Source: Desulfobacterales bacterium
Lineage (GTDB): Bacteria > Desulfobacterota > Desulfobacteria > Desulfobacterales > JAHEIW01
NCBI GenBank assembly: GCA_030066985.1
Contig: JASJAN010000031.1
Coordinates: forward strand, 1 to 64,000
Direction of reading: 5' to 3'
Length of the DNA: 64,000 nucleotides
Shown here: one piece after another, positions 2,478-42,904 of the stretch
Position numbering within the stretch: the stretch's first letter is position 1
Layout of the letters: each line of letters opens with the position of its first letter
Notes under the pieces: generated by a model
Database searches by the model: none
The model's input: the letters and a program-made list of their open reading frames with translations, nothing else
What the model was told of the DNA's origin: nothing
Translations under genes and position numbers: made by a program

Positions 2478-2695
2478 TCTTTATATTGTATACATTATTT
2501 TTATATACAAATATTAGGCGCGCATGTTTTTGCCGTTATTAAGATTATCGGCATTGGGGCCCCAGATTGCATAGCACATTCAACAATTTATATCTTCAGG
2601 TAAGATAGCCCGTGAGCAGCAGATGTTGTTGATGCTCTGGGCAGGATTTTTCCAGAACTCTCTCTTCAGGCATAACAATAGACGGAGGCATGCAA

Positions 2696-3517
2696 ATGTT
2701 CGCTTTGGAAGGATTTACCGTTACAAAATTTATCATCACGATCATTGCCATGATTGGCATTTCGGCCTTGTTTTCCATTTTCGGCCGGGGCGGCGGTGAA
2801 TTCAAGCTCCCAGTATTAATAACGGTTTTAACGATGCTGCCCTACTTTGATATCGCCACCATCAGTTTATTTTGCATCTTTGTTCAAGGTATTACCATGC
2901 TGGCAGTGTATGGCTCCAAACACAAATTGGTGGACTGGCCCCTGGCGTTTGCCCTGGCTCTCATCGTTGGTTCATTTGCATTTATGGGCGGGTATTTCGC
3001 ATTTAAGGTCAAGGCCCTTTACCTCAAAGGCACCTTTGCGGTGTTATTGCTCATATCGGCATATTTTATGTGGAAAGGTAAAGGCGTTCCCGGCAAGCCG
3101 GGCAAATTTGGTGTCTGGCATCGCGTCATGGGAAACGGTGAAGAATATGACATGAACTTGTTATTAATTGCTCTGCCCGTAGGAATCATCGCATTTATCG
3201 CCGGAATGGTCGGCATATCCGGTTGCGGGTTAATCATTCCAGTTTGCATCATACTTGGAGCCGTTCCCATCAGAATTGCGATCGGCACCAATACGATGCT
3301 CGTTCTAACATCCTCGGGCACTTCGTTTTTAGGCCACGCCGTCAGAGGAACAACACCATGGACTTTAACAACCATTCTGGGAGTGGCTGCGATTTGCGGG
3401 GCTTTTATCGGTGCCAATTTGCATATCGATATACCGGAAAAGTACATCAAGGCTGGCTTTATCACCCTGCTGGTTGTGGCATCTATATGGATGGTAGCTA
3501 AAATTTACATACTGTAA
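2696..3517 (+). CDS. TauE/SafE-family sulfite/organosulfonate exporter-like permease
   Basis: A 273-residue protein of the TauE/SafE (PF01925) family, with about seven to eight hydrophobic segments arranged as two related halves. The second half contains the glycine-rich GMVGISGCGLIIP and AIGTNTMLVLTSSGTSFLGH motifs. The start is set by the ribosome binding site: GGAGG at 2684-2688 is 7 nt from the ATG at 2696 but only 1 nt from the ATG at 2690. Family members export sulfite, sulfoacetate or other small anions, or import sulfur compounds. It lies 37 bp upstream of the first methyltransferase and may move a substrate or product of that pathway. Confidence 0.85.
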   Translation: MFALEGFTVTKFIITIIAMIGISALFSIFGRGGGEFKLPVLITVLTMLPYFDIATISLFCIFVQGITMLAVYGSKHKLVDWPLAFALALIVGSFAFMGGYFAFKVKALYLKGTFAVLLLISAYFMWKGKGVPGKPGKFGVWHRVMGNGEEYDMNLLLIALPVGIIAFIAGMVGISGCGLIIPVCIILGAVPIRIAIGTNTMLVLTSSGTSFLGHAVRGTTPWTLTTILGVAAICGAFIGANLHIDIPEKYIKAGFITLLVVASIWMVAKIYIL

Positions 3518-3554: not shown

Positions 3555-4652
3555 ATGAAAAAGTTAACCAAAAAGGAACGAATCGAATGTGTATTTAATA
3601 TGAAGGAACCCGATTGTGTCCCGGTTTTTCCACGCAATCAGGCCCAAATGATATATTCCATGGGCTGGAAATTGCCGGAAATGACGGGTCAGGACTGGTA
3701 TGATGCCGAAAAATCCGCCCTGGCGGCTTTATGGAACCTGGAATATATGGATTATGACGTTGCATTCGGCTGTTATTACGATATGGGATTCGGCGTTCCG
3801 GCCCTGGGCGGCATCCTGGACATACCCGAAAAATGGGGTATGAGTGTGCAGTGTTTGAAACATCCAGTGGAATCCAAAGCAGACTGGGATACCGTCAAAA
3901 AACAATTTCCACTGGACCCCCTCACGGATCCGCGGATGCGCGGTGCCCTGAAATCCATCAAATATGTTTCCACGGCAGTGGGTGATCATACGCCCGTCAC
4001 ACCGGCTTATTATACGGGCATTTGTGTGGTCAGTTTGATTTTAATGGAAGTCGGCGGCCTGATGGAGGCCTGCATGGAAGAGCCTGAATGGGTAGATGAT
4101 ATGTGCCGCCGAGCCTCTGATTTTGCAATGGACTGGATTCGCGCGCAGTACGAGGCCGGTGCCAATAGTTGGTTGTATCTGGCAGATTTTTGGGGCACCG
4201 AACTGATCTCACCGCAGATGGCCGATCGATTTATTACACCTTATGTCATCGAGATGAGCGAAATGGTTGAAAAAGAGTTTGGCCAGAAGACTTTTTATCA
4301 TGTCCACGGGAATATGACCCGACCCAAGTCACAAGAGTGGCTTGAGAAACTAACAAAAGACGCCAATATCGTTGGCTTGCATCTGGACAAGGCCCATGAC
4401 GCGAGCTGGATCAAAGAGGTCGTCAAGGGTAAAATGGGGGTGGCCGGCGGATTGCCGTTTAAGGGCGGTTTTCTGGATAAAGGACCGATTGAAAAAATTA
4501 CTGCGGAAGCCAAAAAATCTCTGGATATCGCTGCTCCGGGTGGCGGTGTCATATTTGTGCCCACAGGACAGGTCCTGCCTTCCACACCCAATGAGCACTT
4601 TAAGGCCTGGATCGATATTGCGCATGAATACGGCAGATATCCGCTTGCATAA
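3555..4652 (+). CDS. URO-D/MtaA-CmuA-type corrinoid methyltransferase, cassette A
   Basis: This 365-residue protein has the uroporphyrinogen-decarboxylase fold used by MtaA/CmuA-type and some O-demethylase methyltransferases. It probably exchanges a methyl group between a substrate and the corrinoid protein encoded 29 bp downstream. The metal-binding region reads HVHG (His249, His251), where MtaA-type enzymes have HxC. The third expected zinc ligand, near the C-terminus, is Gly338 (PTGQVLP), whereas the cassette B paralogue has Cys338. Activity or metal chemistry may therefore differ. A strong Shine-Dalgarno site (GGGAGG) precedes the ATG. The substrate is unknown. Confidence 0.85.
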   Translation: MKKLTKKERIECVFNMKEPDCVPVFPRNQAQMIYSMGWKLPEMTGQDWYDAEKSALAALWNLEYMDYDVAFGCYYDMGFGVPALGGILDIPEKWGMSVQCLKHPVESKADWDTVKKQFPLDPLTDPRMRGALKSIKYVSTAVGDHTPVTPAYYTGICVVSLILMEVGGLMEACMEEPEWVDDMCRRASDFAMDWIRAQYEAGANSWLYLADFWGTELISPQMADRFITPYVIEMSEMVEKEFGQKTFYHVHGNMTRPKSQEWLEKLTKDANIVGLHLDKAHDASWIKEVVKGKMGVAGGLPFKGGFLDKGPIEKITAEAKKSLDIAAPGGGVIFVPTGQVLPSTPNEHFKAWIDIAHEYGRYPLA

Positions 4653-4681
4653 AGTGTTCAACATCCAAGGAGGAACTGGTT

Positions 4682-5323
4682 ATGTCTGATTTTCCCGAAC
4701 TGACCCAGGCGGTCATCGACGGCAACCGCAACAAGGTCGTTGAGATTGTCAATGCAGAATTAGAAAAAGGCACCACTCCCCAGACGCTGCTGTCGGATTA
4801 CATGATCCCCGGCATGCTGCATGTGGGCGATCTGATGCAGGAGGGTGAATATTTTATTCCCGAGGTATTGCGTTCGGCCAAGGCGATGAAGGGGGCTTTG
4901 GAAATCTTGGAGCCGCTTTTGGCTGAAAGCGGCGGCGCGGAGTCAGCCGGCTATATTGTCATCGGCACTGTTGACGGCGACATTCACGATATCGGCAAAA
5001 ATCTGGTGGCCATGCTGCTCAAGGGCAGCGGCTTTGAGGTCAACGATGTGGGGGTATCGGTGAAAACCGAGACATTTATTGAAGCGTTACAGGCAAAAGA
5101 AGGGCCGGTTTTGCTGGGCATGTCAGCGCTGATCACCCCTACCCTGGATGAAATGCCGGTGGTGATCAAGGCTGTCAAAGAGGCCGGTCTGCGGGATCGG
5201 GTCAAGATCATGGTCGGTGGAGCACCGGTCACCCAGGAGTTTTGCGATGAAATCGGTGCTGACGGTATGGCCGAAGACGCCGCAGCCGCAGTCACTCTGG
5301 CAAAGCAACTGCTCGCCGCATAA
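4682..5323 (+). CDS. Corrinoid (B12-binding) methyl-carrier protein, cassette A
   Basis: A 213-residue protein with an N-terminal helical methionine-synthase cap domain (about 1-88) and a C-terminal Rossmann B12-binding domain. The DIHDIG motif starts at residue 100, and His102 is the expected lower axial cobalt ligand. Downstream GMSALIT and GGAPVT are typical of MtaC/MtbC-type corrinoid proteins. It carries the methyl group as methyl-Co(III) between methyltransferases. AAGGAGG lies 8 nt before the ATG. It differs from the cassette B copy (15020-15661) at only about nine residues by eye, although the partner methyltransferases have diverged far more. Confidence 0.95.
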   Translation: MSDFPELTQAVIDGNRNKVVEIVNAELEKGTTPQTLLSDYMIPGMLHVGDLMQEGEYFIPEVLRSAKAMKGALEILEPLLAESGGAESAGYIVIGTVDGDIHDIGKNLVAMLLKGSGFEVNDVGVSVKTETFIEALQAKEGPVLLGMSALITPTLDEMPVVIKAVKEAGLRDRVKIMVGGAPVTQEFCDEIGADGMAEDAAAAVTLAKQLLAA

Positions 5324-5369
5324 GATAAAAATTATCAATTGCCACTCAAGAGCAAAAGGAACCTAACAG

Positions 5370-5618
5370 ATGATAGAACAAATTCAAATTTATACCCGCG
5401 GTTGCGTTCGATCCATAGCAGTGGAAAAAAGTCTGAGAAAGGCGGTCAGCAAAATGGGATTGGACGTTGAGGTCAAGGCCTATGATGATCCTGTAGTCCA
5501 CAAAGCGGAAGGCCTCGATAGTTTCCCTTCCGTAAAAATAAATGGTGAACTCAGAGTTGAGGGCGACTTTACGTCTGTCGATGATTTTGAAGAAATGCTT
5601 TCAGAATATCAAAATTGA
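5370..5618 (+). CDS. Small thioredoxin-fold protein (CVRS), cassette A
   Basis: This 82-residue protein has a thioredoxin/glutaredoxin-like layout: strand IQIYTRG, a CVRS motif starting at Cys12, helix, strand, then FPSVKINGELRVEG with the cis-Pro-like position, and a C-terminal helix. The second cysteine of CxxC is Ser, so a monothiol or binding role is more likely than disulfide exchange. It follows the corrinoid protein by 47 bp. A paralogue with CPRS occupies the matching place in cassette B, which ties this protein to corrinoid methyl transfer. No specific function is known to me. Confidence 0.75.
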   Translation: MIEQIQIYTRGCVRSIAVEKSLRKAVSKMGLDVEVKAYDDPVVHKAEGLDSFPSVKINGELRVEGDFTSVDDFEEMLSEYQN

Positions 5619-5755: not shown

Positions 5756-6400
5756 GTGGTGACAGCTGATAAGCAGAGGGAAAATAAAGCTTCTAGGCAC
5801 CTTGAAGAACAGAGCCAAAAGGTTGCCGAACTTTATAATTCGGGGACGAACTGCGACAAAGCGGTTTTATTAATCCTGCAGGAAATTTTAAAACTGCCGC
5901 CAGAAAAATGGGATTTTGCCGATTTTTATGCCGAAAACCCGGATGCCGATCGATTTTTATGCAAAGCGCTGGCCGCCGGTGCGATGGCTATTTATCTGGA
6001 TGTGATCGGCCAGATGGAAGCCGAGACATCGCAATCCTCCGATATTAAAGAATCCATCGAACGCGTAAATCACATCTTTAATCAGCACCTGGAAGAGACC
6101 AGTGAAGGGAAACCCATTCATCCGGTTGATTTCGATCCATTCGCATATGATGAGGCATTGAAGGGCATAGAAATCGATGAGCGTTATAAAAAATCCTATC
6201 AAAAAAAAGTAAAAACCTTATTTCAAAGTTTTGAAACCGAATTTAATGCCTGCAACTGCCAAGATGTACTGGGTTTCGATCCATTCAGTTATGTGGATTA
6301 CGATGAGGAGATGCAGGAATACATTGAAGAGGGCGAGTGGATGCAAAAATGCATCGATTGTATGCAGTTCCTGGTTAAAAAAATGGGAGATGCTGCCTAA
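5756..6400 (+). CDS. C_GCAxxG_C_C-type redox protein, Cys form, cassette A
   Basis: A 214-residue protein that follows the C_GCAxxG_C_C pattern: GTNCDKAV (Cys33), LCKALAAGAMA (matching GCAxxGA.MA), ACNCQDVLGFD, then KCIDCMQF near the C-terminus. Proteins of this pattern include split-Soret-type and other redox or Fe-S/heme-binding proteins, mostly uncharacterised. The start is taken at GTG 5756 because AAGGAAGG (5741-5748) lies 7 nt upstream. An ATG at 5723 in the same frame has only a weak site. It closes cassette A. The cassette B paralogue is the same length and has TGA in place of Cys33. Confidence 0.7.
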   Translation: MVTADKQRENKASRHLEEQSQKVAELYNSGTNCDKAVLLILQEILKLPPEKWDFADFYAENPDADRFLCKALAAGAMAIYLDVIGQMEAETSQSSDIKESIERVNHIFNQHLEETSEGKPIHPVDFDPFAYDEALKGIEIDERYKKSYQKKVKTLFQSFETEFNACNCQDVLGFDPFSYVDYDEEMQEYIEEGEWMQKCIDCMQFLVKKMGDAA

Positions 6401-11399: not shown

Positions 11400-11572
11400 T
11401 TTCAACGTACACTTAAAATACAAGTGTGATGGATACACCATAAATATGCAATGCTTACGACGAGGGGGTGATCTAATTGCGTTTCAAGCTATGACCGTCC
11501 GCGTTTCTTCTACCGACCCAGTCCACATCTCTTATCTAACCTAAATTGTCCAATCAAAAAGGAGTCTTAACG

Positions 11573-12445
11573 ATGTCACTAGAAAAATATCACAAAATGG
11601 GCGAAATTATGGATCGATTTTTAAGACCCAACACCTTTCCCGTCGCCTACAAATTAATCAAAGATGAAAGCGAAATCCCAGAGAAGGCGCTGCGTCCGTT
11701 GAAAAATTATAAAACCCGCCTGTTAATCTGTCAGTGCCTGCATCTGACCAAGACCACCGGTAGAACCCACGCCTTGCTGACTGAGGATAATTATTGCCTC
11801 GAAGGGTCCTGTGCCCACGGGTGGGCAAAAAAGCCTCCATACATGCTAGACGGCACGGCCATCTATCCCCGACTGGTGCCGGACCTTGAAGTCGCCAAAA
11901 AATTTGAAAACGACAAACCCTTAATCCCTCCGGACAAAGGCTATATCGGGGTTGTCATGTCACCCTTGGGCTGGACAAAAATAGAACCCGATCTGATTCT
12001 GTTGAGCTTAAATGCCGCCAGGATGAACCGCGTTATCGAGGGCATCTGTGATCAAACCGCAGAGAAAATCGTGGCCGAGAACAGTGGCCGCGGCGGGCTT
12101 TGCTGCTGGGGCATTGCACCGGCGATGAATACCGGTAAACCCACCTATGTTATCCCAACCTTTGGTGAATATCGCTTTACCGGCGACAGTGATGACGATA
12201 TGTGGTTTATCCTGCCGGTAGCCTATCTCGAACCGCTGGTCAAAGGCTTTGAACATATGCATAAAGCCGGCTGGCGTTATCCGATTCCGCGATTTGTCGA
12301 ACATGAGCCCCGCTGGCCGGACGGCATGTACGGCTGGGAAACCTACGAAGCCTTTCAAGAGAAAGAAGGAAAGGGCGAGAAGTACGAAGACTATAAGGAT
12401 GACTGGTTTGGAACCTATACGGATAAAGACTGGTTTGAAAAATAA
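11573..12445 (+). CDS. DUF169-family protein
   Basis: A 290-residue cytosolic protein of the DUF169 family (COG2043). This family has no settled function and is common near one-carbon and aromatic-degradation genes of anaerobes. Visible features are conserved cysteines (ICQCLHLT, CLEGSCAHGW, GLCCWG), which could bind metal or act in redox chemistry, and the family GEYRFTGDSDDDMWF block. AAGGAG 6 nt or more before ATG 11573 fixes the start. An upstream in-frame TTG at 11546 overlaps that site and is unlikely. The gene has its own promoter and terminator. Confidence 0.85.
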   Translation: MSLEKYHKMGEIMDRFLRPNTFPVAYKLIKDESEIPEKALRPLKNYKTRLLICQCLHLTKTTGRTHALLTEDNYCLEGSCAHGWAKKPPYMLDGTAIYPRLVPDLEVAKKFENDKPLIPPDKGYIGVVMSPLGWTKIEPDLILLSLNAARMNRVIEGICDQTAEKIVAENSGRGGLCCWGIAPAMNTGKPTYVIPTFGEYRFTGDSDDDMWFILPVAYLEPLVKGFEHMHKAGWRYPIPRFVEHEPRWPDGMYGWETYEAFQEKEGKGEKYEDYKDDWFGTYTDKDWFEK

Positions 12446-13892: not shown

Positions 13893-14990
13893 ATGAATAA
13901 AAAGGAGCGATTTGATGCGGTAAGGCAGCGCAAAGCGCCGGATTACATGCCGGTGTGGCCGCGGGTCATGTCTCAGATGCTATACAGTCACGGGTATTTA
14001 CTGCCCGAGGTCACCGGTCATGACTGGTATGACTCAGATAAGGTCACCGAGGCGGTATTGGCCAATATCAAAGAAGTCGACTACGACATCGCCATCCCCT
14101 CCTATGTGGACTACGGGTTCGGTGTTCCACCGCTGGGCGGCAACATTATGATTCCGGAAAAATTTGGTTTGGCCGCAGGCACCACCGAGGATCAACCGGT
14201 AAAGAGCAAAGACGACTGGCCGAGGGTGCAAAAGCTGATGGCCCAATACGATGTCACCAAGACCGACCCGCGCATGGCCGGCTGTCTTGAAGTAATGAAA
14301 AACGTATCGGCCGCCGTCGGCGATGAGATGCCACTGGTGCCGATGTATTATGTAGGCACCACCGCAGCCATGTTTTTGTTTCGGCCCAACGAGGCCTTTT
14401 TAGAGGACACCTATGATGATCCGGACTGGGTGGCGGAAATGTGTGATCTGGCCACAGAGTGGGCCATCGACTGGATCGGTGCTCAGTATGAAGCCGGTTG
14501 CAATTCGGTTTGTTTTACCGCCGAGACCATGGGCACCTTGATGCTCAGCCCCAAGATGTGCATCGAGTTCAACCTGCCGTGCGTTAAAAAGCTGGTTGAA
14601 GCGGTCAGAAAAAATCACAACCAGGCCACCTGGCTGCACATTCACGGGGATATGACCACCCCCAAGGCCTTTGAATATCTAGAGTTGCTGGTTAAAGAAG
14701 CCGGTGTGGAAGGTTTTCATTTTGACGAGTTCAACCCACCGGATTGGATCAAGACCGAAGTCATCGACAAGTTAGGGGTGCCAGCCTGCATCATTACCGA
14801 CGGAGCCGACATTGTTAAAGGGCCGCCGGAAACAATTGATGCGCAGGTTAAAGATCAGATCTCTAAAATCGGCGATGGGCTGGGAGTGATGATGGCGCCC
14901 AGCTGCCAGGTGCTGCCGGCCACCCCTCAGGAAAATTTTAAGACCTGGGTGGATGCCACCCATCAACACGGTAAATATCCGCTTGCATAA
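13893..14990 (+). CDS. URO-D/MtaA-CmuA-type corrinoid methyltransferase, cassette B
   Basis: A 365-residue paralogue of the cassette A methyltransferase, of equal length and alignable end to end. It shares the HIHG motif (His249, His251) but keeps the C-terminal cysteine, Cys338, in PSCQVLPATP, expected as a zinc ligand in MtaA-type enzymes. This copy thus has a fuller ligand set than copy A. It would transfer methyl groups between an unknown donor and the corrinoid protein encoded 29 bp downstream. GGAAGGAGG precedes the ATG. MtaA, CmuA and the URO-D-type O-demethylase subunits all fit equally well from sequence alone. Confidence 0.88.
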   Translation: MNKKERFDAVRQRKAPDYMPVWPRVMSQMLYSHGYLLPEVTGHDWYDSDKVTEAVLANIKEVDYDIAIPSYVDYGFGVPPLGGNIMIPEKFGLAAGTTEDQPVKSKDDWPRVQKLMAQYDVTKTDPRMAGCLEVMKNVSAAVGDEMPLVPMYYVGTTAAMFLFRPNEAFLEDTYDDPDWVAEMCDLATEWAIDWIGAQYEAGCNSVCFTAETMGTLMLSPKMCIEFNLPCVKKLVEAVRKNHNQATWLHIHGDMTTPKAFEYLELLVKEAGVEGFHFDEFNPPDWIKTEVIDKLGVPACIITDGADIVKGPPETIDAQVKDQISKIGDGLGVMMAPSCQVLPATPQENFKTWVDATHQHGKYPLA

Positions 14991-15019: not shown

Positions 15020-15661
15020 ATGTCTGATTTTCCCGAACTAACCCAGGCGGTCATCGACGGCAATCGCAACAAGGTGGTTGAGATTGTCAATGCAGAAGTA
15101 GAAAAAGGCACCACCCCTCAGGCGCTGTTATCCGACTTTATGATTCCCGGCATGCTGCATGTGGGCGATCTGATGCAGGAGGGTGAATATTTTATTCCCG
15201 AGGTATTGCGTTCGGCCAAAGCCATGAAGGGCGCTTTGGAGATTTTGGAGCCGCTTTTGGCTGAAAGCGGCGGCGCGGAGTCAGCCGGCTATATTGTCAT
15301 CGGCTCTGTCGACGGCGACATTCACGATATCGGCAAAAATCTGGTGGCCATGTTGCTCAAGGGCAGTGGCTTTGAGGTCAACGATGTGGGTGTGTCGGTG
15401 AAAACCGAGACATTTATCGAAGCGCTCAATGAAAAAGAAGGGCCGGTTTTGCTGGGTATGTCAGCGCTGATCACCCCTACTCTGGATGAAATGCCGGTGG
15501 TGATCAAGGCTGTCGAGGAGGCCGGACTGCGGGATCGGGTCAAAATCATGGTGGGCGGAGCGCCGGTCACCCAGGAGTTTTGCGATGAGATCGGTGCCGA
15601 CGGCATGGCTGAAGACGCCGCGGCTGCAGTCACTCTGGCAAAGCAGCTGCTGACCGACTAG
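15020..15661 (+). CDS. Corrinoid (B12-binding) methyl-carrier protein, cassette B
   Basis: A 213-residue near-copy of the cassette A corrinoid protein, with the same cap domain and DIHDIG motif (His102 as cobalt ligand). AAGGAGG at 15005-15011 is 8 nt from ATG 15020. A TTG two codons earlier in the same frame is not needed. Only about nine residues differ from copy A, and the DNA is also very similar, including the region around the start. This suggests recent duplication or gene conversion while the partner enzymes diverged. It probably receives methyl groups from the preceding methyltransferase and gives them to the pterin methyltransferase that follows. Confidence 0.95.
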   Translation: MSDFPELTQAVIDGNRNKVVEIVNAEVEKGTTPQALLSDFMIPGMLHVGDLMQEGEYFIPEVLRSAKAMKGALEILEPLLAESGGAESAGYIVIGSVDGDIHDIGKNLVAMLLKGSGFEVNDVGVSVKTETFIEALNEKEGPVLLGMSALITPTLDEMPVVIKAVEEAGLRDRVKIMVGGAPVTQEFCDEIGADGMAEDAAAAVTLAKQLLTD

Positions 15662-15694: not shown

Positions 15695-16567
15695 ATGGCA
15701 GACGTACTGACGACAACCGTAAGATCAGCATCAAAGGAAGTTTCCTTCAGCCGTGAGTTGCCGACGGCGATTATCGGTGAGCGCATCAACCCCACCGGCC
15801 GCAAAAAGTTGCAGGAGGAGCTCAAGGCCGGTAATTTTGACACGGTCAAAGCCGATGCGCTGGCGCAGATTGAAGCCGGTGCGGCCATCTTGGACGTCAA
15901 TGCCGGTGTGCCGGGCGCCGATGAGCCGGCGCTGCTGGTGCAGATGATCGAGGTGCTCAGCGAGTTGACCGATGTGCCGCTTTGCATTGACACGGCTAAT
16001 GTTAAAGCGCTGGAGGCCGCGCTGGCGGTTTATGCGGGCAAAGCGCTGGTCAACTCTGTCAACGGTGAAGAAGAAAAGCTGGAAAAGATTTTGCCGTTGA
16101 TCAAACAATACGATGCGGCGGTCATCGGTTTGACCATGGATGATGAGGGTATTCCCAAGACGCTGGAAAAACGCATCGAGATCGCCGGCAAAATCATGGA
16201 TCGCGCCGCCAAAGTCGGTATTGCTGCCCAGGACATTGTCATCGATCCTTTGGCGATGTCGATCGGCGCCGACGATCAGGCCGGCAAGATGGCGCTGGAT
16301 GCGGTCGAGGCGATTGTCAAAGACTATGGGGTCAACATCACCATGGGCTGCAGCAACATATCATTTGGCATCCCGGATCGCGAGTTGCTCAACGGAGCGT
16401 TTTTGGCCATGGCGATCCGCTGCGGGCTAACCTGCCCGATCACCAATCCGCTGTTTGATGAGGTAGTCATCTCGATTCTGGCCGCCGATCTGGCCATGGG
16501 TCGTGACGAATTTGCCACCAACTGGATCGGTGGTTACCGCAAACGCCAAAAAGCCGCTCAAAAATAG
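15695..16567 (+). CDS. Methyltetrahydrofolate:corrinoid methyltransferase (pterin-binding)
   Basis: This 290-residue protein has the dihydropteroate-synthase/pterin-binding TIM barrel of AcsE, MtgA and similar enzymes. Visible motifs are GERINPTGR (from Gly28), LDVNAG at about 66, the DPLAM segment and GCSNISFG at about 217. It most likely moves the methyl group from the corrinoid protein to tetrahydrofolate, linking methyl donors to the Wood-Ljungdahl pathway. It lies 33 bp after the corrinoid gene in cassette B. Cassette A lacks a partner of this type and may share this one. Direction in the cell is inferred. Confidence 0.92.
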   Translation: MADVLTTTVRSASKEVSFSRELPTAIIGERINPTGRKKLQEELKAGNFDTVKADALAQIEAGAAILDVNAGVPGADEPALLVQMIEVLSELTDVPLCIDTANVKALEAALAVYAGKALVNSVNGEEEKLEKILPLIKQYDAAVIGLTMDDEGIPKTLEKRIEIAGKIMDRAAKVGIAAQDIVIDPLAMSIGADDQAGKMALDAVEAIVKDYGVNITMGCSNISFGIPDRELLNGAFLAMAIRCGLTCPITNPLFDEVVISILAADLAMGRDEFATNWIGGYRKRQKAAQK

Positions 16568-16591: not shown

Positions 16592-16837
16592 ATGATTGAA
16601 AAAATTCAATTTTACACTGCCGGCTGTCCCCGGTCACAGATCTCGGAGAAAAATTTAAAAAAGGCCATGGGCAAGCTGGGCATTGAGTTTGAGGTCGAAA
16701 GCATTGATGATCCAAAAGTTCATGAAGCAGACGGGGTATCGGCCTTTCCGGCTATAAAGATCAACGGCGACATCAAGTCCGAAGGGAAATTCATCACAGT
16801 TGATCAGTGTGAAGAAATTTTGGACGAATACAAATAA
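16592..16837 (+). CDS. Small thioredoxin-fold protein (CPRS), cassette B
   Basis: An 81-residue thioredoxin-fold protein that begins IQFYTAGCPRS (Cys12), with the second cysteine replaced by Ser, then FPAIKINGDIKSEG and a C-terminal helix. It is clearly related to the CVRS protein of cassette A over its full length. AAGGAG stands 11-12 nt before the ATG and the gene starts 24 bp after the pterin methyltransferase. The fixed association with corrinoid genes suggests a role in keeping the corrinoid or a partner reduced, or in binding a thiol. That role is inference. Confidence 0.78.
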   Translation: MIEKIQFYTAGCPRSQISEKNLKKAMGKLGIEFEVESIDDPKVHEADGVSAFPAIKINGDIKSEGKFITVDQCEEILDEYK

Positions 16838-16930
16838 CGAGGCGATATTTTGATGAACAAATCGCATTCGGGCGTATGCCTGAACCGTTTTTCTTTTGTC
16901 TCAACATTTTAATTAACCTGAAAGGAGGCG

Positions 16931-17572
16931 GTCACTTTCCCCTACCCTAATGATAAAACAAAAAAACCATTAAGTTCTGAAGAGGCATGCAAACGGGTTG
17001 CTGAACTTTTTAACAAAGGAACCAACTGAGACAAAGCCGTTCTGCAAGGTTTGCAGGAAGCGTTGGGGTTATCCCGGGAAAAATGGGAACTGGGATCTTT
17101 TTACTCGGAGAATCCGGATACCGAAACCTTTCTGTGCAAAGTGCTGGTTGCCGGAGCTGTCACCATATATCTCGATATCATTTCAGGCATCAATATACAG
17201 CAGATGCCGCCTGAAGGACAGGATTCGGCTCAACGCGTAAATACAGTGTTTAATATTTTTCTCGAAAAATGCAGCGGTGACAGGTGTGTGGATCCGGCAG
17301 TCTTTGATCCGTTCAAACAGGATCCGGCTTTGGACGGCACTGCGGTCGATAGCAGCTTTAAACAGGAATACAAACGCCGGATTCAGAAGCTTACAACTGC
17401 CTTTAAAACACATTTTAAAGTTAACACTTGTCAAGAGATTTTAGGGTTCGATCCTTTTCGTTATGCCGAATACGATGAAGCCATGCAGGAATTTATCGAA
17501 GAAGGCGAGTGGCAGTCCAAATGCAACGAATGCATCGAATTTATCGTAAAAAAAATATGTGAGAACGACTAG
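16931..17572 (+). CDS. C_GCAxxG_C_C-type redox protein, probable selenoprotein, cassette B
   Basis: A 213-residue frame matches the cassette A protein almost end to end but has TGA at 17027-17029, codon 33, exactly where copy A has Cys33 (GTNCDKAV versus GTN-TGA-DKAV). Later motifs are kept: LCKVLVAGAV, NTCQEILGFD and KCNECIEF. A 6-bp hairpin with a GGT triloop begins after the TGA, with the loop 18 nt from it, which fits a bacterial SECIS. Copy A has no such hairpin. Oddity: no ATG, GTG or TTG occurs in frame between the stop at 16919 and the TGA. By alignment, copy A GTG-GTG corresponds to GCG-GTC here, so the given start is a placeholder. Alternatives are a decaying gene with lost start and nonsense codon, or translation from TTG 17051. 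Confidence 0.6.
17040..17058 (+). promoter_or_regulatory. Candidate bacterial SECIS hairpin (C_GCAxxG_C_C gene)
   Basis: CTGCAA (17042-17047) pairs perfectly with TTGCAG (17051-17056) around the triloop GGT (17048-17050). Two outer pairs (T41-G57 wobble, T40-A58) extend it. The loop begins 18 nt after the in-frame TGA, in the usual 16-37 nt range and, as I recall, the same distance as in E. coli fdhF, which also shows GGU. Confidence 0.6.
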
Positions 17573-17710: not shown

Positions 17711-18703
17711 ATGAAATTAAAACACATCATTCTACTTTTACTTGTGGCTCTTTTTCTTATTCCTTCAGTTCCTGCCTTTGCTGCCGGTAAGCTAATAGAA
17801 ACAGACGTCATCACCACCGAAAAAATGAAAATCGTCTGGGGCTATTGTCCGTATGGCATGCTGGAAACATCAGTCATGAAGGAAAAACAGTTTTATAAAA
17901 AATACCTCCCTAATGTTGAAGTTGATTGGTTTTTCGGCCTTTGGAGTGTTCATCTGATTAACAATTGGATTGCCGGAAAACTTGAAATTGCCTACCTCGG
18001 GAACATGCCCGCTGTCATGCTCCAATCCAAAATAAAAAACACCAAATGGGTTGGGGTTGCGGTTTATCCGCACGGTGATGTTGGTGCTGTCTTCGTACCA
18101 AAAGACTCCAAAATTAAAAGTGTAAAAGAACTGGACGGTGCGACTATCGCCACCGGTGTGGGTTCTTCACATCACCGCATTCTGGAAGAAATTGCCAAAC
18201 AGGAAAATATTAAATTTAATATTGTCAGCCAGAACCCGGAAGTGGCTGTGGGCAATCTGGAAGCCGGCAAGCTGGACGCTTTCTGCTATTGGCCGCCCTA
18301 CATCGAGCTTGTCCGCGAGAAAGAGGTCGGCAAGTGCATAGAGCCTTGCAACGCGAATAAATATGAACCCTATGTCAACGCCATCTGGCCGCTGCTTGTC
18401 AGTGAAAGATTTGCCAAAGCCCATCCGGATATCGTCAGAGGGCTCGTTAGGGCCGACAATGACCTGCACGACTTCATGAAAAACCATCCGGATGAAGCTG
18501 CCGAAATTGTTTACAATGAGCTGGAAAGAAAGATTCCGCTCGAATCACTAAAACGTTCGCTGGCCCGGTATAAATACTCAAATGAGCTGACGGACGAGCA
18601 CATCGAAGTCATGCAGCGCGACATTGACTTTCTGTATGAAAAGAAGTTTCTCAAAAAACATTTCAAGGCAGCTGATTGGGCTGACAACAGTTTCTATAAA
18701 TAA
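17711..18703 (+). CDS. NitT/TauT-type ABC transporter substrate-binding protein
   Basis: A 330-residue periplasmic binding protein of the SsuA/TauA/NMT1 class. A signal peptide (MKLKHIIL, hydrophobic core, AFAA near residue 23) is followed by EVDWFFGLW, IAYLGNMPAVM and a conserved GVGSSHH segment that contacts ligand in relatives. ATG 17711 has a GAGGGGG site and a normal signal sequence. The longer frame from 17627 would bury the signal peptide. Ligands of the class include sulfonates, nitrate, taurine, thiamine precursors and small aromatics. It heads an operon with two permeases and two ATPases. Confidence 0.88.
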   Translation: MKLKHIILLLLVALFLIPSVPAFAAGKLIETDVITTEKMKIVWGYCPYGMLETSVMKEKQFYKKYLPNVEVDWFFGLWSVHLINNWIAGKLEIAYLGNMPAVMLQSKIKNTKWVGVAVYPHGDVGAVFVPKDSKIKSVKELDGATIATGVGSSHHRILEEIAKQENIKFNIVSQNPEVAVGNLEAGKLDAFCYWPPYIELVREKEVGKCIEPCNANKYEPYVNAIWPLLVSERFAKAHPDIVRGLVRADNDLHDFMKNHPDEAAEIVYNELERKIPLESLKRSLARYKYSNELTDEHIEVMQRDIDFLYEKKFLKKHFKAADWADNSFYK

Positions 18704-22830: not shown

Positions 22831-23523
22831 GTGAATCCAAAAACGCGAGTTTTAGTTGCCTGCCGGATTTTTGAACCTGAGCTTGAAATGCTCCTCACTC
22901 CTGAATCGAATATTGAAATTCGATATCTGGACCAAGGCCTGCATCGTTACCCGCATAAAATGCCTTCCCTCGTTCAGGATCAAATCGATCAGGTGGCCAC
23001 CTGGGCCGGTGAAGTTGTTCTCGGGTATGGATTATGCTCGAACGGCATCGCCGGTGTGACTGCTGGCAAAAGTGGCCTTATCGTACCTCGCAGCCATGAT
23101 TGTATCGCATTTTTTTTGGGTTCCTGCACAAAATATCGCGTGGCATTAAAAAAGCGTCCGGGCACCTATTATTTAACGGCCGGCTGGATTAAGGAAGGTC
23201 AGGACCCATTAGGTATTGTTGACAATGACTACACGCCACGACTGGGTCGTAAAACCGCCATATGGGGAATGACCGAAGAATTGAAAAATTACAGCCATGT
23301 GGCTTTTATCAATACCGGCGCCGGTAATACGGCTCATCTCCGTCAGAGGGCTGCAGAAAACGCCGATTTTTTTAATAAGAAATTTATAGAGGTCAAGGCA
23401 GATTTAGGATTTTTAAAAAAGCTGCTTTACGGTCCCTATTCCAATGAAGAATTTATCTTTATGAAACCGGGGGATTGCATTGAACAAAAGATGTTTTTAA
23501 ACTACCCTTCCCAATCCTGCTAA
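22831..23523 (+). CDS. DUF1638-family protein
   Basis: A 230-residue protein of the DUF1638 family, often seen near corrinoid methyltransferase genes in methanogens and anaerobic bacteria. Conserved blocks seen are VLVACRIFEPE, GYGLCSNG, VPRSHDCIAFFLGS and the GNTAHLRQRA segment. The cysteines in CRIFE, GLCSNG and HDC suggest a metal or thiol site. It starts at GTG 22831 without a strong ribosome binding site. No function is established. Its presence supports a methyl-transfer role for this region. Confidence 0.82.
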   Translation: MNPKTRVLVACRIFEPELEMLLTPESNIEIRYLDQGLHRYPHKMPSLVQDQIDQVATWAGEVVLGYGLCSNGIAGVTAGKSGLIVPRSHDCIAFFLGSCTKYRVALKKRPGTYYLTAGWIKEGQDPLGIVDNDYTPRLGRKTAIWGMTEELKNYSHVAFINTGAGNTAHLRQRAAENADFFNKKFIEVKADLGFLKKLLYGPYSNEEFIFMKPGDCIEQKMFLNYPSQSC

Positions 23524-24867: not shown

Positions 24868-25617
24868 ATGTCGACCTTACTGATTGCGGCTCTAATTGTT
24901 TTTGTTTTTACAGCAGTGTTGACCATCGCCGGTGTCGGAGCGGCATTCAGCATTATTCCATTCTTTTTTTGGATGGGATTGCCTCTGAAAGAAGCCATGG
25001 CGACTGCCTTGCTATTAAACAGTCTCAGTATGGGTTTTGCCTCGGTCACCTATATACGCAATAAATTGGTTGTTTTCCAAGTTGCACTTCCTGTATTGAT
25101 CGTGGCTTCGATTTTTTCTCCGCTGGGGGCCTTTTGCACACAATTTATCTCGCGCGAAATTTTGTTGTGGCTGTTTGCAGGGTTCTTAATCTTTGCCGGT
25201 TCTATGATGCTCCTTTTCAGACCTCAAGCGAAGGAATCCTTTTACACCTGGAAACAGCAACTGCTTATAGGTGGGCTCATTGGCGCAGTTGCCGGTTATA
25301 TCGGTGGCCTGCTGGGAGTTGGCGGCGGAAACCTGATCGTTCCGGCTTTAATCTGGATAGGTTTTGAAGCCCGCAAGGCAGCAGCCACATCGGGGTTTAT
25401 CGTCATTTTCTCGTCTTTAGCAGCCTTCCTCGGCCATGTCCTGCTGGGCAATGTGAACCTGCCGCTTCTGGGAATATCGGCTTTTGCTTCAATCGGCGGT
25501 GGGCTGCTGGGCGCATGGCTATTATCAATTAAACTAAAAGGGTCACATGTAAAGACTGTCATCGGTCTGGTGCTTTACATAATTGCCATAAAAATGATAT
25601 GGGGACTGTTGTCATAA
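24868..25617 (+). CDS. TauE/SafE-family permease
   Basis: A 249-residue TauE/SafE (PF01925) permease with about seven to eight membrane segments in two repeats. It includes GVGAAFSIIPFFFW in the first half and GGLLGVGGGNLIVPALIW with AAATSGFIVIFSS in the second. It is likely to export sulfite or a related anion. It follows the TusA/DsrE cluster by 170 bp and mirrors the other TauE-type permease at 2696-3517, so the one-carbon region is flanked by two such transporters. Confidence 0.88.
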   Translation: MSTLLIAALIVFVFTAVLTIAGVGAAFSIIPFFFWMGLPLKEAMATALLLNSLSMGFASVTYIRNKLVVFQVALPVLIVASIFSPLGAFCTQFISREILLWLFAGFLIFAGSMMLLFRPQAKESFYTWKQQLLIGGLIGAVAGYIGGLLGVGGGNLIVPALIWIGFEARKAAATSGFIVIFSSLAAFLGHVLLGNVNLPLLGISAFASIGGGLLGAWLLSIKLKGSHVKTVIGLVLYIIAIKMIWGLLS

Positions 25618-42528: not shown

Positions 42529-42634
42529 AGGTTAAAATAAAAACTCAAACAATTACTTCTTCAGGATATTATAGATTGATACTGAACAAATATATATTCT
42601 GTAATAATTAAATATGAGAAAGGGGGAGATGGAT

Positions 42635-42904
42635 TTGCTGCCTGAAAAACAAAAAACAACCTACAGAGCATTTTATGATTCAGCGCGACACAACGATATC
42701 CTGGACCCCAAGACAACCCTGATGCTACATCTGGCATCGGCAATGGCCATTGGGTGCTATCCGTGAATGCAGGAATACCTTGGCGTTGCCAGGGAAGAAG
42801 GCCTCAGCGATACCGAAATTGGAGCGGTACTGTCAATTGTCATGGCGGTATCCGGCGGAAGGGTTCAGGCCCAATTGAAAGATGCGGGTAAAATATATGA
42901 ATGA
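42635..42904 (+). CDS. AhpD-like (carboxymuconolactone decarboxylase family) selenoprotein, CxxU
   Basis: An 89-residue frame with an in-frame TGA at 42764-42766. Read as Sec, it gives GCYPUMQEYLGVAREEG, the AhpD-like CxxC motif with the second Cys replaced by Sec (Cys41, Sec44). SDTEIGAVLSIVMAVSGG is the typical following helix. The start is TTG 42635, 6 nt after GGGGGAG; ATG 42614 or 42629 in the same frame are alternatives. The hairpin right after the TGA fits a SECIS. AhpD-like selenoproteins are known. It probably reduces peroxides or disulfides. The stop overlaps the next start, so the two genes are coupled. Confidence 0.8.
42778..42794 (+). promoter_or_regulatory. Candidate bacterial SECIS hairpin (AhpD-like gene)
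   Basis: CCTTGGC (42778-42784) pairs over 7 bp with GCCAGGG (42788-42794), one U-G wobble, around the triloop GTT. The loop starts 18 nt after the TGA, the same distance as in the other candidate at 17040-17058. Confidence 0.75.

Follow-up and report, generated by a model that had tools for sequence, protein, structure and literature searches.

A long C-GCAxxG-C-C-like protein with a predicted selenocysteine codon in a corrinoid methyltransferase operon of a Desulfobacterales bacterium

The apparent stop codon TGA at positions 17027–17029 (forward strand) of the window, as the whole 64,000-nucleotide stretch analysed is called here, very probably encodes selenocysteine (Sec), as judged from the sequence of the gene and of its homologues. 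The explanation that accounts best for the observations overall, and which is put forward with considerable confidence, is that the gene represents a selenoprotein subfamily in which the UGA at 17027 is decoded as Sec and the product would act as a redox partner of a methyltransferase system. The evidence carrying this reading is the exchange of TGA and Cys codons among homologues, the constraint on the reading frame before and after the TGA, the Sec machinery of the genome and the synteny of the locus. The protein would be a long (approximately 200 amino acids), predicted mostly helical relative of the C-GCAxxG-C-C family, with either Cys or Sec in the place of the first Cys (GTN-C-DKAV).

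The conserved part of the TGA-containing gene, copy B, is located at 16979–17572 (+), and the frame containing the TGA is open to 17572. Read through, its product is 49% identical to that of a second gene of the window, copy A, across residues 14–209 of 213, with the TGA aligning exactly with the first conserved Cys of copy A (codon TGC 5852–5854). Copy A, the Cys form, is located at 5756–6400 (+), its candidate starts being GTG 5756 or 5759 (also ATG 5735 and 5723). The initial annotation had proposed that the TGA of copy B replaces a conserved Cys while the later Cys residues are kept, and had pointed to homologues with Cys or Sec at this position, to homologues with TAA or TAG and to the Sec genes of the genome as the evidence on which this proposal depends. 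The replacement is real, as it recurs in three relatives. Four of the eight long-form homologues carry TGA at the first-Cys codon, namely window copy B, a homologue in G088, a genome of the same genus, and the two paralogues G066a and G066b of genome G066; four carry Cys (window copy A, G231, G113 and G210), and TAA or TAG is found in none of the eight. Copy B is 77% identical to the G088 homologue and 49% and 35% identical to the two G066 paralogues. Three later cysteines (C53, C151 and C182 in the aligned protein numbering), all located after the first Cys, do not vary among the eight homologues and are thus kept in copy B. The TGA had been placed at codon 33; it is in frame as described, but the count runs from GTC 16931, which is not a canonical start. 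When the TGAs of the window that have open frame around them were ranked by a crude codon score, TGA 17027 came no higher than 14th of 206 and would not have stood out by that score alone.

The long-form subfamily is rare and was found only in this order among the genomes searched. A search of the order matched 10 of 389 genomes, six of which, the genome of the window included, hold the eight full-length homologues; the other four (G051, G181, G183 and G283) gave short C-terminal matches only (E 2e-6 to 8e-6) and were left out of the alignment. At class level, 5 of 389 genomes matched, all of them previously found and with no further full-length homologues, and at phylum level 1 of 395 matched, the genome of the window itself. 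The family search matched 2 of 6 genomes, both previously found, and the search of the family of G066 matched one of one, G066 itself. The alignment search of viral contigs yielded no full-length homologues. Of two pattern-based scans of genome contigs, which may miss relatives, the first confirmed none and the second recovered six loci, all already found. In a tree of the eight homologues, Sec and Cys forms are intermixed, with a support of 64–66 on the deciding branches that is too weak to count the switches.

Copy B has evolved under constraint. In comparison with the G088 homologue, pN is 0.139, pS 0.58 and dN/dS 0.14 (TGA codon excluded), and copy B retains each of the 33 columns that do not vary among the other seven homologues. 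With G066a used to polarise the changes, seven amino-acid replacements are assigned to the lineage of copy B and 12 to that of G088, 26 being ambiguous. Over the 16 codons 5′ of the TGA, copy B and G088 differ in two codons synonymously and in one nonsynonymously. Taken together, the dN/dS value, the kept columns and the upstream codons indicate that the frame was under constraint both before and after the TGA, at least up to the recent past; had copy B lost its start codon only very recently, numbers of this type would not reveal it. Since synonymous sites are saturated between copy B and both G066 copies, the TGA has persisted for a long time.

The machinery for Sec incorporation, on which the initial annotation had made its proposal depend, is encoded in the genome of the window (5.07 Mb, 97.8% complete, a draft of 81 contigs), with selA (614 bits, cut-off 268), selB (376 bits, cut-off 242) and a tRNA-Sec with anticodon TCA (75 bits, cut-off 47) each scoring over the cut-off. 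A second, shorter selB-like match (L002, G000:C39:255-1160; 187 bits, under the cut-off of 242) is located near a contig end. The UGA at 17027 would be read as Sec by SelB and tRNA-Sec, presumably aided by a hairpin that starts 10 nt downstream.

This SECIS-like hairpin (17040–17058, +) has a stem of 8 bp with arms at 17040–17047 and 17051–17058 and a GGT loop at 17048–17050 that starts 18 nt after the TGA. In bacterial SECIS elements, the loop lies 16–37 nt from the UGA and has a G among its first bases. All four TGA copies conform to this rule of distance and loop; in the window copy, the hairpin is statistically not strong. Counted from the T of the TGA, the stem pairs columns 14–21 with 25–32 in all four TGA copies, around three-base loops of GGT, GGT, GTC and GTA; all 32 stem cells are paired, one pair being altered on both sides. 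Under the criteria applied (6–9 perfect pairs; a loop of 3–8 bases starting 16–29 nt after the codon with G in its first two bases), none of the four Cys copies, copy A included, shows such a hairpin. A GGU-loop hairpin at SECIS distance that is absent from copy A, as described in the initial annotation, is thus borne out on both counts. As evidence for Sec the hairpin holds insofar as it is present in 4/4 TGA and 0/4 Cys copies, but it weighs less than had been claimed and is not strong by itself, because the protein sequence partly forces the pairing. In the window copy, this is due to an LQ-x-LQ peptide that spells two CTGCAG-like words. Column shuffles equalled the hairpin score in 231 of 500 cases, with minimal covariation, and of 2000 synonymous versions of the peptide the observed stability was reached by 559 for the window copy, 570 for G088, 64 for G066a and 19 for G066b. 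The Cys copies read LL or FL where the first LQ stands, a difference consistent with adaptation of the peptide to a SECIS element but no proof of it. A scan of the window with Rfam at gathering scores gave no match, which counts neither for nor against the hairpin.

The start of copy B is less readily placed than that of its relatives. Between the in-frame stop TGA 16919 and TGA 17027, its frame contains no ATG, GTG or TTG and also no CTG, ATT, ATC or ATA. A Shine-Dalgarno-like AAAGGAGG at 16921–16928 (+) suggests, by its sequence, a ribosome site; no canonical start codon follows it in the frame of copy B, the expected start positions being occupied by GTC 16931 and TTC 16937. The stretch that separates the thioredoxin-like (Trx) gene from the conserved part of copy B, 141 bases at 16838–16978 (+) with no identifiable start codon, is equivalent to 19 bases in G088, where the nearest start, an ATG overlapping the Trx gene at which the window has ACG, makes the TGA codon 29. 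In G066a, the candidate starts TTG or GTG place the TGA at codon 30 or 33, and in G066b three candidate ATGs place it at codon 33, 34 or 36. For copy B, either unusual initiation, an error in the 5′ sequence or a recent start loss applies, and its expression is uncertain, while the relatives have candidate starts. As a source of the extra 5′ sequence within the same genome, a match of 27 query bases (E 0.004) was considered, which upon realignment comprised 17 exact bases and was taken as chance.

It is because of the missing start that a real, if clearly minor, probability is accorded to the window copy being an incipient pseudogene of a true selenoprotein gene, with its 5′ end rearranged and its start lost. 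The lack of an in-frame ATG, GTG or TTG 5′ of the TGA, the 141 bases after the Trx gene compared with 19 in G088, the ACG in the place of the G088 ATG and the presence of an intact Cys copy A in the window all speak for a recent pseudogene; on the other hand, the conserved part is free of any other stop or frameshift, dN/dS is low, the 33 conserved columns are completely retained, and the strong AAAGGAGG is positioned directly upstream. Such a fate of the window copy is compatible with the family-level claim, which is independent of it, and its odds overlap with those of the main explanation.

Termination at the TGA combined with a shorter protein that starts downstream, for example at TTG 17051, from which an ORF of 173 amino acids is available, is improbable, as the 16 codons 5′ of the TGA are conserved in both copy B and G088 and line up in frame with those of the Cys copies, and as a start at 17051 would lose the conserved UDKAV segment. 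Still less credit is given to a −1 frameshift at A_AAA_AAC by which ATG 16950 would supply the start for the frame of copy B. This ATG reads ATG ATA AAA CAA AAA AAC CAT TAA (16950–16973), a −1 shift does enter the frame, and A_AAA_AAC is a classical −1 slippery heptamer; its occurrence in the right phase is probably a coincidence. The Shine-Dalgarno-like site, however, is 21 nt from ATG 16950, the N-K-T before the slippery site matches G088 in the frame of the gene, which weakly suggests a continuous ancestral frame, and the equivalent part of G088 showed no such heptamer. That the TGA arose from a Cys codon by simple nonsense mutation or by a sequencing error, conceivable for a codon one base away from TGC or TGT in a draft assembly of 81 contigs, is largely refuted and hardly credible, because independent copies, those of G088 and the two G066 paralogues in two other assemblies, repeat the TGA at the identical codon.

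Decoding of the UGA as Sec remains the preferred reading, and the question of how novel such a protein is leads to the C-GCAxxG-C-C family (TIGR01909/PF09719). In relation to the PF09719 (C_GCAxxG_C_C) gathering cut-off of 27 bits, copy A scores above (28.6) and copy B below (23.5), and TIGR01909 gave no match at E ≤ 0.01 for copies A, B, G066a and G066b. An hhalign comparison with seven ordinary members (probability 58, E 9.8e-5) paired the first and the two last Cys, the first Cys being in an FxxGxNCxxxV-like context and C151 and C182 being paired with Cys residues of the C-GCAxxG-C-C family. The central GCAxxG motif is not kept in the long form, which has FLCKVLxAGA or similar there. Ordinary members thus share with the long form the Sec/Cys exchange, the same first Cys and the two C-terminal Cys, but they are about 146 amino acids long compared with about 200, and the long form is located in a methyltransferase operon.

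The initial annotation had stated that no selenoprotein had been described in this redox family, which is contradicted by the NCBIfam name of TIGR01909 ("C-GCAxxG-C-C family (seleno)protein"), by reviews in which C-GCAxxG-C-C selenoproteins are listed among predicted families (PMC9312934, PMC13188914) and by three ordinary members with TGA. In a PF09719 scan of 194 genomes of the order, 109 matched, and at least nine among the matches listed carry at least one TGA; of the nine TGA-carrying matches listed, three were read (L051, L055 and L058, at about 1501–1890, from other genomes of the order), and in all three the TGA lies at the first Cys, in the context GYN-U-AQS. The genome of the window has a single PF09719 match among the matches listed (E 6.8e-4), with no ordinary member seen. 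Sec at the first Cys being of a known kind, the new part is the long divergent subfamily and its corrinoid methyltransferase operon, and the claim of a new selenoprotein stands with respect to the Sec reading, which is supported by homologues, machinery and hairpin, but not with respect to the wider family, already known with selenium. Since the curated TIGR01909 misses this selenoprotein branch, such genes are likely annotated as truncated or omitted. Among the matches listed, the PF09719 match of G066 at C1:5384651 carries two TGA, and three matches contain an internal TAG (G013:C2:1811, G153:C44:2655 and G179:C84:4784), two of them TAG alone and one TGA plus TAG, as candidates for pseudogenes or for the use of pyrrolysine.

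A literature search, yielding mostly listings, returned no description of a long Sec subfamily next to corrinoid methyltransferases, and a prior description is possible. The family name C-GCAxxG-C-C is absent from the main texts of PMC2398784 and PMC12013277 as far as these were covered, and the part of PMC10418091 covered makes no mention of a C_GCAxxG-like selenoprotein. With the HUGP/GUXX-star fusion selenoprotein (NF045501) the long form shares weak C-terminal similarity (24 to 51 bits), but it is far under the cut-off of 325 bits, and the three ordinary members score slightly higher (52 to 59 bits). The combination of an MtaA-like methyltransferase and a corrinoid protein in the window operon is also found in type I mlp clusters, which, like the SAO families, belong to corrinoid or organometallic gene clusters with a link to selenium, and the ABC binding protein of the window is weakly like SaoX (46.6 bits, cut-off 300), but none of the window proteins scanned with NCBIfam exceeded the cut-off of a Sao family, and the MtrH-like methyl-THF enzyme sets the window operon apart from SAO and mlp clusters. 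Modelling with AlphaFold2 produced a mostly helical structure, with a pLDDT of 86 for the best model and of 64–70 for the other four. No convincing structural relative emerged, as no Foldseek match had E ≤ 0.001 and no VIA-align match exceeded Z 4.6, and no structural conclusion is drawn; the best match of a PDB sequence search, D_3_633_8x (E 0.013), covers a short stretch and was rejected.

With respect to the operon, copy B is preceded on the same strand by a cassette (cassette B) consisting of genes for an MtaA/CmuA/URO-D-like methyltransferase (13893–14990, +; PF01208 over the cut-off), a corrinoid protein (15020–15661, +; named from sequence and place), an MtrH-like protein resembling methyl-THF:corrinoid methyltransferases (15695–16567, +; Pterin_bind and NF005719 over the cut-off) and a thioredoxin-like small protein with a CPRS motif (16592–16837, +; PF13192 over the cut-off). 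It is followed by an SsuA/NMT1-type ABC substrate-binding protein (17711–18703, +) and then by permease-like and ATPase-like genes up to 22235. Cassette A (3555–5618, +) encodes an MtaA-like methyltransferase, a corrinoid protein and a Trx-like protein, the latter recognized by family scan.

A tblastn comparison of 27 window proteins with six fetched loci (L029–L034) shows that this setting is conserved. In the fetched loci, the MtaA-like and corrinoid proteins of cassette A hit the very genes that were hit by the corresponding proteins of cassette B. The Trx-like gene is immediately 5′ of the C_GCAxxG-like gene in seven of eight loci (window A and B, L029–L033); in L034, it is in the cluster, with a TRAP system between the two. 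MtaA-like and corrinoid genes are present in all five loci reaching that far (window A and B, L030, L033, L034), the sequences of L029, L031 and L032 beginning inside the MtrH-like gene. The MtrH-like gene itself is found in six of eight loci and is absent from window A and L034. An SsuA-type ABC system is located downstream in window B, L029, L030, L031 and L033, and a TRAP system downstream in window A and L032 and upstream in L034. The form encoded within the corresponding operon is Sec in two loci, L029 (G088) and L030 (G066), and Cys in two others, L031 and L033. A Pfam scan of 20 window proteins revealed no RACE-type corrinoid activator, which leaves room for a redox or reactivation role, though that role is not thereby demonstrated. 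Two TauE/SafE exporters, a DUF169 and a DUF1638 protein flank the cassettes (2690–3517, 24868–25617, 11567–12445 and 22831–23523) and perhaps hint at organosulfur or methylated substrates.

Synteny and the Cys pattern suggest a redox role in partnership with the methyltransferases. The selenol would form, together with the other conserved Cys, a redox or metal site, and the selenol or thiol protein would, together with the adjacent Trx-like protein, probably serve as redox partner of the MtaA-like/corrinoid/MtrH-like system, either by maintaining the reduced state of the corrinoid or of a thiol acceptor, or by reducing an imported substrate. More tentatively, and rather doubtfully at present, the Sec/Cys subfamily may be distinct and undescribed and may, with its Trx-like neighbour, constitute the redox/reactivation arm of a corrinoid system without RACE in its neighbourhood; if so, selenolate chemistry would serve anaerobic demethylation. 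The findings would link anaerobic corrinoid methyl transfer with the use of selenium in deltaproteobacterial metagenome-assembled genomes and make the long-form protein a testable candidate redox partner of such systems, with the natural alternation of Cys and Sec in one corresponding operon providing a clean comparison of the contribution of Sec.

A second probable Sec codon is found elsewhere in the window, where the frame 42608–42904 (+), encoding a small CMD/AhpD-like protein, contains TGA 42764–42766 in the context CYP-U (CxxU). This TGA is the top of the 206 in the crude codon-score scan and has a hairpin with a three-base loop downstream. The similarity of the protein to NF041537, NF045649 and the GSU3128 (seleno)protein family is weak and in each case under the cut-off, and the protein is a probable representative of a known kind of selenoprotein.
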